Below the pieces are notes generated by a model that made no database searches, was not told the DNA's origin, and saw nothing but the letters and a program-made list of their open reading frames with translations. The translations under genes were made by a program, and so were the position numbers. Positions 5,039-34,512 of a DNA stretch of 64,000 nucleotides are shown here, piece after piece. Positions within the stretch are counted from its first letter, which is position 1. Every line of letters begins with the position of its first letter. This DNA comes from Methylacidiphilales bacterium. GTDB taxonomy: Bacteria; Verrucomicrobiota; Verrucomicrobiia; Methylacidiphilales; UBA1321. The stretch is taken from assembly GCA_026225555.1 (NCBI GenBank), contig JAMFSY010000111.1:1-64000 (forward strand), given 5' to 3'.

Positions 5039-5224
5039 CTATTCTTCAACGGTGCGGGAAATGACCTGACGGCCCCGGTACATGCCGGTCTTTTCGTCCA
5101 CACAATGGCCATGGTGACGATTGCCTGTCTTCGGGTCCACATAGAGACCCGGTGATTTCCAAGCGTTGGCGGCTCTGCGCGTGCGCAGCCGCATTTTCGA
5201 TGTTTTGCGTTTAGGAACTCCCAT
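5039..5224 (-). CDS. rpmF: 50S ribosomal protein L32
   Basis: MGVPKRKTSKMRLRTRRA..., upstream of plsX as in many bacteria. Confidence 0.93.
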   Translation of the reverse strand: MGVPKRKTSKMRLRTRRAANAWKSPGLYVDPKTGNRHHGHCVDEKTGMYRGRQVISRTVEE

Positions 5225-9351: not shown

Positions 9352-9365
9352 GGCAGGTCAGGGGC

Positions 9366-9415
9366 GATAAAAACAATAAGGGCGCAGGTGCCGATGTCCG
9401 GCAGGCTGCGCCCTT
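9366..9415 (-). terminator. Rho-independent terminator downstream of rpmE
   Basis: On the minus strand AAGGGCGCAG...CTGCGCCCTT stem followed by ATTGTTTTT. Confidence 0.75.
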
Positions 9416-9425
9416 GATGGGAAAA

Positions 9426-9683
9426 CTATTTCTTTTTGGCGGGAGCGGGAATGGCGGCCGTGCCCATGCGCTTCTCGGTCAGTTTGCTCGCACCGAAGCG
9501 GCGCGTGAATTTCTCGACGCGACCGGCGGTATCAACAAACTTTTGCTGACCGGTGAAAAAGGGATGGCAGGCGGCGCAGATACCCAGGCGGATGTTCTGC
9601 TTGGTGGAACGCGTATGGTAGACCGTGCCGCAGGCGCAAACGATCTGGCTGTCCACGTATTCGGGGTGGATGTTCTGTTTCAT
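9426..9683 (-). CDS. rpmE: 50S ribosomal protein L31
   Basis: MKQNIHPEYVDSQIVCACGTVYHTRST...CAACHPFFTGQQKFVDTAGRVEKF (Cys-containing form); ATG at 9683. Confidence 0.95.
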   Translation of the reverse strand: MKQNIHPEYVDSQIVCACGTVYHTRSTKQNIRLGICAACHPFFTGQQKFVDTAGRVEKFTRRFGASKLTEKRMGTAAIPAPAKKK

Positions 9684-9765
9684 GGGAGTTGGAAACCGTA
9701 GCTCAAACCTGCGGAAGAGCAAGCGACAAATAATAAGCGTTTAAAAGGGGCGCCCCACCAGGAAA

Positions 9766-9975
9766 TCAATGACTGCCACTACCCTGCGCCGTGTCGAGCA
9801 GCGTGGTGATCGCGCTGAAAATCACTTCGATTCTTTGCCCAAGAAGCGAGACGGCACCGATCATGACTACCGCTAGAACGGCGATGATCAGCGAATATTC
9901 AACCAGAGTCTGGCCTTTTTTCTGCCGCCATTGTTTCGCAAGCCGAAAGGAAAGGGATGAGGAGTGCGACCGCAT
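9766..9975 (-). CDS. Flp/Fap-type pilin subunit
   Basis: KKGQTLVEYSLIIAVLAVVMIGAVSLLG, Flp-type N-terminal hydrophobic segment with GQTLVEY. Confidence 0.82.
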   Translation of the reverse strand: MRSHSSSLSFRLAKQWRQKKGQTLVEYSLIIAVLAVVMIGAVSLLGQRIEVIFSAITTLLDTAQGSGSH

Positions 9976-10099
9976 GCGAAGGGAAAAGAGAGTGTGATGC
10001 GTGTCGAGCTTAACTTATTTCGCGAATCCGACAATCAATTCGGAGTGAAGAAAGAGAATTGGGAGAATAGAACTTCCCAAGTCTCTGAGCCTAAGAGAA

Positions 10100-10294
10100 T
10101 TAGTGGCTCGCAGCCAGCTGGCTGTTAATCGAGGAGAACACCTTCGTGACCTGATTGCCGAGGGCGATCAGGACGGAGATGGCCACCACCGAGATGAAGG
10201 CCAGGATGAGCGCGTACTCAACGAGGGTCTGACCCTTCTTGCTCTTGAGACGACGCAGCGCAGTTTTGGCGCGGATAATTACTTTGTTGATCAT
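10100..10294 (-). CDS. Flp/Fap-type pilin subunit
   Basis: MINKVIIRAKTALRRLKSKKGQTLVEYALILAFISVVAISVLIALGNQVTKVFSSINSQL; AGGAGGTGA ribosome-binding site just upstream of the ATG at 10294. Confidence 0.87.
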   Translation of the reverse strand: MINKVIIRAKTALRRLKSKKGQTLVEYALILAFISVVAISVLIALGNQVTKVFSSINSQLAASH

Positions 10295-10608
10295 TGTTAT
10301 TTCACCTCCTCTCAAAAAAAAGTGTCTGAAAATTGAAAGTAGAAGCGCTGTCAGCCGCCACTCAGTAACCCGTAACAACCATTTCGTATGCCATCGCTAT
10401 ATGGGCCTCCCTCATTTCCCTTGAGCTGTTTTTGGACCTTCTCAACTATCATGGATAGTAAGCCTGACAACAACATCTTATGTCAAATAAAACTCAAAAA
10501 TAAGTGATAAGTTATTTTCTGATCCTAGGAAAGGGGCGAGGTGAACGGGAGAAAAAACATGTCCTGATTCCGAACGGTGTGCCTTTTTTGCCTACACTTT
10601 TTGGACAC

Positions 10609-11079
10609 TCAGGAAATTGCTGCAGGGCCGTTTAAGAAATCGCCATCCAAAATAAGGGGGCCTACCTGTGATTCCTTCTCACGCGCTAATTGCAGAAGAC
10701 CATTCAAGGCTCCTGTTACCTGCTGGGCGTAAAAACGGACCAGGCCGATGTTCGTTTTCTCCCCGAAAATGGTGACGAGCAGACACTCATGGTGCAAGGC
10801 GCTCATCAGGATATGCTGTCCCTGTCCTTCGTGATAAAGAGCGCTGAATTCAGATTCCCCCAGCCGCTTTGCCAGCTCGTGCGTGGCGGCGAAGGAGCCT
10901 GCCGCGAGAGCGGAAAGAATACTGAGGTCGAGCGTCCCCGTGTCGCCATATTGGGCGAAGAGATTGCCGCCCTTATCGACCAAGGCAGACCATTGCGCCT
11001 CCGACTTCGCGAGAAAGTCGGCCAGCTGCTGTTCAATGGCCATTTGATCTTCGGCCGTTAACATTCCGATTCCAGTCAT
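10609..11079 (-). CDS. Roadblock/LC7-domain protein (MglB-like)
   Basis: 156 aa, roadblock-like fold pattern (AQWSALVDKGGNLFAQYGDTGTLDLSILSALAAGSFAATHELAKRLGE...); immediately downstream of an MglA-like GTPase. Confidence 0.75.
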   Translation of the reverse strand: MTGIGMLTAEDQMAIEQQLADFLAKSEAQWSALVDKGGNLFAQYGDTGTLDLSILSALAAGSFAATHELAKRLGESEFSALYHEGQGQHILMSALHHECLLVTIFGEKTNIGLVRFYAQQVTGALNGLLQLAREKESQVGPLILDGDFLNGPAAIS

Positions 11080-31712: not shown

Positions 31713-32648
31713 ATGCCCAGACCGATCAGCAAACTCGCCGAAGGATGGTGGGATTACACCACCCTCGATCCTCAAATTCTCTCCGACGCCGCGCAATTGT
31801 CCCCCAAGGATCTGGCGCAACTAAGCCGGCCTGGATTTGCCGTCAAATTTTACAACACCGTCCAGGAATTCTACTCCGCGCAGGCGCTGGAATACATCGA
31901 GGCCTGGCAGCAATCAACCCCCGACAATCCCGCCGGCATTTGTGGCCCGATTGGTCCGACAGAGCAGCTACCCATCGTCGCGCTCATGGTCAATGCCTTG
32001 GGCCTCAATCTCAAAAGTCACGAGGCCCATTTCTGGGGCATGGACGAGTGGCTGGAAAATGGTCAGCCCGTCGATCGCACGCATCCGCTCTCGTTTGCCC
32101 GATGTGACAACGAACTCTGCTTCGATCGCATTCACCCCGAACTGGCGTTGCCGGAGGCTAACAAGCACTTTCCCTCGGGCGACCTTGCGGCCTACAGCGC
32201 CACCTACGATACAATTCGCTGCGTCGTCATGCAGGGAGGTCAGGGCGAGATCAAGCATTGGGCCTTCAACGATCCCCTTCCCCGGACGGGCAAATTTCAG
32301 GATGCGCCTCCATCGCCCGAAGAGTATCGGCAATTAGGCACTCGAATCGTCAAACTTCATCCCGTCACCATTCTCCAAAATGCGCGTACTTCCGGCGGCG
32401 GAAACGTCAGCCTCGTTCCCACCCATGCCTGCACGGTCGGCCCCAAAGAAACCTGGAAAGCGGAGAAGGTCAGCATCTGGCATCCCGGCCATCACGACAA
32501 CCCCTTCGGCATGCGCTTGAGTTCGCTCATGATCTCCAAGCGAATCGTGGATAGCTCCTGTCCCATGTCGCTTCTGGCCGATCATCCTAATGTCCAATTC
32601 AACTTCCTCCGCAGCGGCTTGGGAAACGTCTCCACTGAAATGCATTGA
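31713..32648 (+). CDS. Diverged NagB-like glucosamine-6-phosphate isomerase/deaminase family protein
   Basis: [40 protein letters not shown] correspond to diverged NagB motifs; adjacent to a PIG-L gene. Confidence 0.65.
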
Positions 32649-32656
32649 AGCGGCAA

Positions 32657-32911
32657 CTACGGCGGGAGCTGCACGGCTATCGGGGCATCGGATGGGTCCC
32701 GCAACCAGTCGTCAACTTCGCGGGGGTCAATGGTGGCGACTTTGCGCAGGGCACTGAACCGCCATGATCCGCAGGTCGCGAAAGTCGCGGCGTCCTCCTT
32801 TGTCTTGAAGAATTTCCGGACACGCTTGCCATTTATCCGAAGTCCTTCTACAACAAATGGAGAAGTTGCAGAGTGACGATACGGCTCAATGCGTAGCGTT
32901 GAGGTTTTCAT
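32657..32911 (-). pseudogene. Integrase (tyrosine recombinase) remnant
   Basis: VVEGLRINGKRVRKFFKTKEDAATFA resembles an integrase N-terminus, followed directly by VATIDPREVDDWLRD (core-binding-like); no catalytic domain; next to a tRNA gene. Confidence 0.45.
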
Positions 32912-33013
32912 GCGCTTGCATTCGCATAAGCCCGTCAATCTCCAATGAAATGTCAGTGACTCAGAATTGCTATCGCCGCACAGTCAGAGCAAGTCATTGA
33001 TAATAAGCAGTAA

Positions 33014-33104
33014 GGAGCTGTGGCCGAGTGGCTGAAGGCGATGGTTTGCTAAACCGTTGTACGACCTTAAAATCGTACCGAGGGTTCGAATCCCTCCGGC
33101 TCCG
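33014..33104 (+). tRNA. tRNA-Ser (anticodon GCU)
   Basis: GGAGCTG...CGGCTCC acceptor stem, long variable arm, GGTTCGAATCC T-arm, anticodon loop TTTGCTAAA. Confidence 0.95.
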
Positions 33105-33281
33105 CTTTTCTTGCGTTGATTTTCAACGATTTGCAAAAGTCGTTTTCAGAAATCTGAAAAATCTGAAAGATTTTCTCCGGATTTTTGGAATTTCAGGGGC
33201 GAGAATTTTCCTTCTATCCGAAATTTGTTGCGAGGCTCCACTGGATTTGTTGGAAAGATTTAAGCATCGCGGAGATCGCAT

Positions 33282-34220
33282 GTGTCAGTAAAATCATGCT
33301 ACCCCATGATCCGTTCTTGTCCGACCCCAGCTGACTTTAGAACTGGTGGGCTTAACCAACTGAACCTGGCGTGGAACATGGTGCTACGCCTGGTTCACCA
33401 ACTCGAGGACGCGAAAGAGGCAGTTGGCTTAGACGCTCCGGAAACGGAAGCAAAGTACTGGAAAGCGGCTCAGTCGGAACTGGGCACCGCGATTGGTCTT
33501 ATACAACAAGGATTTGATTTCCTGCTGAAGGCGCAAATCTGCGAAGTTAGCCCCTATCTGCTCATCTCACGCAACCCTGCTGATTGGCCGAAGAAGTGCG
33601 ACAAAGAAGATATCGAGTTCGCCGAGTTTCGAACCATCGACTCCCAAGATTTCGTCAAAGTCCTCGACACAGTTTCTCCGACTCGCTTTGATCCTGAATT
33701 TGTCACTTTATTTGACGACCTGCGGAAGAGGCGGAATCGCATCATGCATACGATTGACCCGGCATTTGAGGCCAATGTTAAAGACATCCTGACTACATTG
33801 CTGCTGGGGGTTGAGTATCTGATCGGTCCAAGACAGTGGGTTAGATTGAGAAAGGAGAATCTGGAACGGGAGGTGGATCTCGGCTACGACGGTGACCCAG
33901 TCAGCTTCGTCCAAGTCCACGATTTCTCAACCGTGGTAGATTTGTTAGATCCCGCGGTTTTGCTTCGGTGTTTTGGCTTCGACCGAAAGCGACGGCGCTA
34001 TCATTGTCCGTCATGCTGTCACGTTGATGATAATGTTGAAATGGATGTTATGACGGCGCTTCTTCAGCCTAACACTCCCATAAGCCCCAATGTTTATTGT
34101 TTCATTTGTACCCAAGACCAAATTGTGGAGCGCATAGATTGCAATTCCTCGGGCTGCATGGGGAACGTCTACTCACCAGACTGGGATATGTGTCTCACCT
34201 GCAAACAGAGTCGAGCGTAA
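33282..34220 (+). CDS. Hypothetical protein with HEPN-like RNxxxH motif and C-terminal zinc-ribbon cysteines
   Basis: LFDDLRKRRNRIMHTIDPAFE (R-X4-H) and C-terminal CPSC...CFIC...CNSSGC...CLTC; GTG start in ORF track, ATG at 33306 also possible. Confidence 0.6.
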   Translation: MSVKSCYPMIRSCPTPADFRTGGLNQLNLAWNMVLRLVHQLEDAKEAVGLDAPETEAKYWKAAQSELGTAIGLIQQGFDFLLKAQICEVSPYLLISRNPADWPKKCDKEDIEFAEFRTIDSQDFVKVLDTVSPTRFDPEFVTLFDDLRKRRNRIMHTIDPAFEANVKDILTTLLLGVEYLIGPRQWVRLRKENLEREVDLGYDGDPVSFVQVHDFSTVVDLLDPAVLLRCFGFDRKRRRYHCPSCCHVDDNVEMDVMTALLQPNTPISPNVYCFICTQDQIVERIDCNSSGCMGNVYSPDWDMCLTCKQSRA

Positions 34221-34512
34221 CCCCTCACTCCATGAAGCCCGGGATCGTCGGGCAAGGTAGAGTTAACCGGCAGTTCCTACAGAACGCGGCCGCCGGCGCG
34301 GCAGTGCTGGTGGAGGGTCGTTTCCGGGACGGGATCACCGCTGGAGAAATCCCGTCCGACTTTCCTGTGATTGAGGTGAAAATCGGACATCCGTTACCTC
34401 ATTGAGTGGCTCCGCTGGCGGAGGAAGCACGGATTCCCAATCAATTTATTCCAAGTTAGAATACATCTTTTTTTAGTTGCCATTCGTTTCTTGAGAAGAT
34501 ACATCGTATCTT

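Follow-up and report, generated by a model that had tools for sequence, protein, structure and literature searches.

A stand-alone HEPN protein with a probable double zinc ribbon beside a tRNA-Ser(GCT) integration site: a candidate one-gene antiviral defence in a Methylacidiphilales bacterium

What kind of gene occupies the variable DNA beside a bacterial tRNA-Ser locus, and did it arrive together with the integrase fragment that lies on the other side of that tRNA? These questions are raised by a 64,000-nucleotide stretch of a Methylacidiphilales genome (hereafter the window; positions 1 to 64,000 of contig JAMFSY010000111.1). A preliminary description, made from the letters alone, had read this locus as a residual genomic island, in which a collapsed integrase ORF, a tRNA-Ser gene and a HEPN-like protein with Cys pairs belonged together as the remains of one insertion carrying a possible defence or toxin-like system. 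Our analysis sustains most of this picture, namely the integrase remnant, the HEPN identity, the role of the tRNA as an integration site and the patchy occurrence of the gene; the single residual island meant to unite them was not supported. The features of the locus are collected in Table 1.

Table 1. Features around the tRNA-Ser(GCT) gene; positions are those of the window
Feature	Position	Strand	Basis
tRNA-Ser(GCT)	33014-33105	+	ARAGORN; Rfam RF00005, 56.6 bits
ORF read as a collapsed tyrosine-integrase remnant	32657-32938	-	Integrase profile match, 27.3 bits in all
Remnant piece also in congener G388 (83%)	32811-32852	.	Sequence match
Native-like stretch 3' of tRNA-Ser	33106-33177	.	Common to G390; to 33162 in G388
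ORF of the HEPN-zinc-ribbon-like protein, 312 aa from GTG 33282	33282-34220	+	
Predicted N-terminal HEPN domain	33306-33884	+	AlphaFold2 + Foldseek
C-terminal Cys-rich tail, probable double zinc ribbon	34005-34205	+	Cys motifs CPSC, CFIC, CNSSGC, CLTC

The identity of the larger protein is best approached through its motifs, with residues counted from the inner ATG at 33306. The R-x4-H signature pointed out earlier is indeed present as R143-N-x3-H148 (RNRIMH), which closes the helix formed by residues 130-148, and D71-x3-K75 (DFLLK) lies within helix 56-81. Both RNxxxH and [ED]xxxK are kept in 18 of 18 divergent homologues, with R, N, H and K invariant. In the published definition of the superfamily (PMC3710099), R-x4-6-H closes helix 3 with a polar residue following the R, and helix 2 contains Ex3[KR]. 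The motif positions of the window protein agree with that definition: Rx4-6H with its polar residue, the acidic residue of Ex3[KR] and a predicted all-alpha fold were all found.

Structural modeling points in the same direction. The full-length model was good over the N-terminal 190 residues alone, and the corresponding Foldseek search, dominated by the unreliable tail, gave low-TM matches such as IDO1 that were set aside. Because the tail skews that search, the HEPN domain was modeled on its own (AlphaFold2, 12 sequences), which yielded a pLDDT of 87 and a pTM of 0.85. When this model was compared with the PDB, the best match was 7ae6 and the second 7bxo, both HEPN (HepT) toxins, followed at lower ranks by the HEPN structures 6m6u, 1ylm (YutE), 7ae9, 6m6w and 8jh1 (Csm6). 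For 7ae6, 7bxo and 6m6u the probability was 0.98-1.00 and the target TM-score 0.46-0.66; the E-values were weak (0.078 at best, to 0.3), the rmsd was 5-10 Å, and we take these matches as evidence at the level of the fold, the motif evidence being the stronger. Model and motifs together assign the N-terminal domain to the HEPN fold as predicted, in line with the original suspicion.

The C-terminal part carries the four Cys motifs that had been listed from the letters, with CPSC at residue 234, CFIC at 265, CNSSGC after it and CLTC at 296. The tails of most non-enterobacterial members of the family contain at least three CxxC pairs, and those of the enterobacterial branch contain two. Model confidence is below 50 over much of the Cys-rich part, where a profile search against the PDB returned mostly zinc-finger matches, with E-values of at least 0.04. 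The tail is probably a double zinc ribbon whose Cys pairs would bind zinc. A phmmer match to beta-phosphoglucomutase in the PDB (E 0.05-0.2) was dismissed as chance.

Two starts are possible for this gene. In nearly every full-length homologue the first residues are M-I or M-L and align with the inner ATG 33306, which means that the protein may measure 304 aa; a GGAG lies seven to nine bases 5' of GTG 33282, which keeps both starts in play. The reading frame of the gene is unbroken, and none of its motifs has been lost. The gene is also AT-rich, at 50.3% GC compared with 59.7% for the window, and just 1.9% of equal-sized stretches are lower. A second AT-rich patch, with 50% GC, occupies window 9501-11000, and 9352-10608 holds no ORF of at least 130 aa.

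The ORF on the other side of the tRNA measures 93 aa from its TTG, or 84 aa if it begins at the inner ATG 32911, in which case 102 bp separate it from the tRNA-Ser gene, much as first reported. It has no match in Pfam. A profile of 397 positions was made from 31 verrucomicrobial tyrosine integrases, with 3000 shuffles as control. The ORF matches this profile at positions 11-57 and then at 151-170, in the right order; the N part scored 21.2 bits against 7.9 for the best shuffle (n=3000), and the C part 7.6 bits against 3.9. The ORF therefore lacks some 93 internal positions of the profile and all of the catalytic domain, which corresponds to the deletion originally proposed. With arm-binding and core-binding matches found in order, as in a tyrosine integrase, the ORF is by its profile matches identified as the arm-binding N-terminus of such an enzyme fused straight to a core-binding fragment. 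Additionally, among its weak matches elsewhere in Verrucomicrobiota are tyrosine recombinases, with whose N-termini it aligns, and a 42-bp piece of it (VEGLRINGKRV) occurs at the same place in the congener G388, ~140 bp upstream of tRNA-Ser.

TTGCCA-N17-TACAAC-like hexamers lie inside the remnant (window 32811-32860) and recur upstream of tRNA-Ser in G388 and in another congener, G390; they may be the promoter of the tRNA gene, either overlapping the remnant or captured from it. Their recurrence 5' of tRNA-Ser in three species and their overlap with the INGKR stretch are what one would expect if the 93-aa ORF were a chance ORF across that promoter and no integrase remnant at all, a reading that we rejected as highly improbable because two separate stretches fit the integrase profile in order with scores beyond every shuffle. 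The genome of the window contains nine tyrosine-integrase matches that form one related group, which suggests heavy traffic of integrative elements in this genome.

Within the genus, tRNA-Ser(GCT) does serve as an integration site, as the preliminary description had supposed from general experience with tRNA genes. G388 carries exact 33-bp direct repeats of the tRNA-Ser 3' end (L058, contig C13 of G388, 10191-10223 and 5103-5135), and these bound a 5.1-kb element (L058 5103-10223) with a gene for an N6-methylase protein and no recognized integrase gene. In G390, where the region is represented by two overlapping contigs, pieces of integrase genes are located downstream of this tRNA, at a distance of ~0.8 to 2.5 kb. 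These tyrosine-recombinase pieces (L126 811-2497, contig C26 of G390) are in separate reading frames and possibly broken.

The window itself presents a different picture from G388. The attL/attR repeats that include the tRNA 3' end, by which a tRNA island is recognized, were found in G388 (33 bp) and not in the window, where the tRNA-Ser 3' end is present once and a second att copy is absent. Moreover, the DNA that follows the tRNA matches sequence downstream of tRNA-Ser in G390 (33106-33177) and sequence beyond attR in G388 (33106-33162). Being common to these congeners, it is native-like and marks no element edge, which suggests that nothing was inserted at the tRNA-Ser 3' end itself. A position of the HEPN gene directly within an attL-attR pair was rejected on account of the single att copy and the native-like sequence 3' of the tRNA.

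It is the proposal of one residual island that finds no support here. The integrase remnant is situated 5' of tRNA-Ser, with the HEPN gene on the other side, and in G388, whose genome is only 66% complete, the remnant piece is present but no HEPN gene was found. This makes it likely that the remnant is a separate scar that predates the HEPN gene; the two need not derive from one island. The pair immediately to the right of the HEPN gene, an XRE-cupin regulator and an acetoacetyl-CoA-synthetase-like gene, occurs together in a relative, G395, where no copy of the HEPN gene was found. The 311-aa gene to the left (window 31713-32648) matches nothing in Pfam, and a search of 11 other genomes of the family gave no homologue. 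The arrangement at tRNA-Ser is not conserved among relatives, so that the lack of synteny implied by an insertion is borne out. Elsewhere in the same genome, fragments of an AraC gene and of the 311-aa gene are fused (L029 3439-3855, contig C95) with 90-98% identity, and this copy ends at window 32656, next to the integrase remnant. The HEPN gene lies in the variable stretch that adjoins tRNA-Ser, where elements are known to integrate in the genus.

A wider view of the family supports its mobility. Homologues occur on plasmids, in phages and in chromosomes of four phyla. Nineteen plasmids carry the family, 17 of which are conjugative or mobilizable, and conjugative plasmids of Klebsiella are among the carriers. 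An integrase directly adjoins the homologue in Sphingomonas and Agrobacterium. In E. coli, 17 of 5426 genomes hold a homologue; the copy of the commensal strain HS (WP_000627053) is located downstream of tmRNA, beside tail-fibre remnants, and the copy on an E. coli phage-plasmid adjoins tail-fibre genes. Further homologues were found in phage contigs, and Marinomonas, Nostoc and Hymenobacter are carriers too. The nearest relative of the window protein, 42-44% identical, comes from Verrucomicrobium sp. BvORR034, where the gene stands next to the secretin gene in a filamentous provirus (Zot-type ATPase, secretin, G2P; L030 9870-18055, L077) that has a matching record in IMG/VR. To our knowledge, few defence genes have been described on phages as small as filamentous ones, and a small phage carrying a candidate defence gene is notable in this respect. 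A phage-collection search by protein returned nothing for two family members, a contig scan with a single HEPN protein gave no match, and a literature search by family protein accessions found nothing.

Within its own lineage, the gene is patchy. It is missing from 59 further genomes of the order, and among 387 other genomes of the phylum only 3 gave any match. Of the plasmid and chromosomal copies, some are fragmentary. The Methylobacterium plasmid copy (L010 8004-8966) has an open frame, yet no gene is entered there in the plasmid's gene table. Qat or AbiTii was seen near some homologues in a simple listing of neighbors. No conserved partner gene was found among 18 loci, at which only integrases, recombinases and ParA-like genes were shared, in single pairs; given that divergent members share no neighbors, the HEPN protein probably acts alone. 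Judged from this distribution, the HEPN gene is horizontally acquired and its family mobile and broad, and the mobile, defence-like setting anticipated from the letters is matched by homologues on plasmids, in phages and beside integrases.

Among abortive-infection effectors, HEPN RNases form a leading class, of which most known examples depend on a partner protein or a CRISPR signal; HEPN systems have been validated in recent screens (PMC13092281, PMC9519451). We think it fairly likely that the window protein is a mobile stand-alone HEPN endoribonuclease that acts through abortive infection in the manner of Tha, and it would probably constitute a one-gene antiviral defence. We infer a dimer whose two chains would pair via their HEPN domains, with R143, N144 and H148 making up a single metal-independent RNase site assisted by the helix 2 residues D71 and K75. 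The C-terminal zinc ribbons may bind a phage-derived ligand or an RNA substrate and hold the RNase idle in healthy cells. Infection would lift this block, whereupon RNA would be cut and growth would stop, protecting the population and the carrier element. In a bolder form, which we hold only tentatively, the family would be an undescribed, widely mobile single-gene anti-phage system whose HEPN RNase is held and triggered by its own double zinc ribbon as phage sensor, with filamentous phages, tailed temperate phages and conjugative plasmids as carriers. Its interest lies in the combination of a one-gene HEPN family with its own probable sensor domain.

Other readings draw on the same observations. 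HepT is the best structural match, many homologues are plasmid-borne, and VapBC adjoins two Sphingomonas copies, all of which would suit a toxin of a toxin-antitoxin or addiction module that stabilizes plasmids and prophages, its antitoxin being unlinked or an antisense RNA and defence a side effect. However, the VapBC pair is limited to two closely related plasmids, and neither a conserved neighbor that could serve as antitoxin nor an MNT gene accompanies the family, which makes such a module unlikely. Alternatively, the gene might serve the phage or plasmid itself, for example in superinfection exclusion or in host take-over via RNA cleavage, and have been stranded after decay of the element. 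Copies in a filamentous provirus, a prophage and a phage-plasmid speak for such a service, but the gene occupies different positions in different elements, and its plasmid and chromosomal copies often stand alone; we give this explanation a small chance, and it differs from abortive infection chiefly in the beneficiary. That the gene came with an island since decayed and is now an unused, inactive relic would accord with the relic integrase nearby and a window without an att pair, but is very improbable for an intact reading frame in which every motif is kept.

How, then, does this candidate abortive-infection RNase compare with systems already described? The protein belongs to no family in Pfam, NCBIfam or PHROGs. 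Weak PADLOC matches concern DUF3644 (E 5e-5 to 7e-4) and the candidate defence family HEC-08 (residues 95-159, E 2e-4 to 2e-3), of whose 358-position model a small part was matched. The EC042_2821 / DUF3644 group resembles the window protein in its HEPN domain and in its reported zinc-ribbon fusions (PMC3710099), whereas its members are fused to wHTH and REase in restriction-modification operons and the window protein is stand-alone. PF12358 (DUF3644) did not figure in the list of Pfam matches with E up to 5, nor was it found in the genome of the window, and hhalign against a DUF3644 profile of four sequences gave a probability of 1%; membership in this group was rejected on the basis of the Pfam result and this four-sequence comparison. 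HepT of the HepT-MntA toxin-antitoxin system (7bxo, 7ae6) provides the best PDB matches to the HEPN domain. Unlike HepT, the window protein has a long insert between helices 2 and 3 as well as the Cys-rich tail, and no MNT antitoxin gene stands beside it or as a conserved neighbor among the 18 loci.

Closest in presumed mode of action is Tha, a HEPN protein of 301 aa from S. aureus prophages with the motif RNSIMH, whose RNase is set off by phage tail proteins (PMC11087260). Both are single effectors of ~300 aa with R-N-x3-H and a HEPN domain resembling HepT, borne by temperate phages, and the RNSIMH of Tha-1 is identical to the motif of the Verrucomicrobium homologue. Tha, in contrast, has a C-terminal HEPN domain, an N-terminal part with no recognized domain and an antisense inhibitor gene, whereas in the window protein HEPN is N-terminal and the zinc-ribbon-like tail C-terminal, a distinction drawn from the published description of Tha. 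Owing to this reversed domain order, we regard the window protein as like Tha in its working and do not identify it as Tha. Fusions of HEPN with zinc ribbons have been recorded in Npun_R5629 and Plim_2023 (PMC3710099), which, compared by description, combine these two domain types; in Plim_2023 they are separated by two transmembrane helices. The family of the window protein, unnamed in the libraries searched, probably represents a HEPN-zinc-ribbon fusion of a type that is as such already known.
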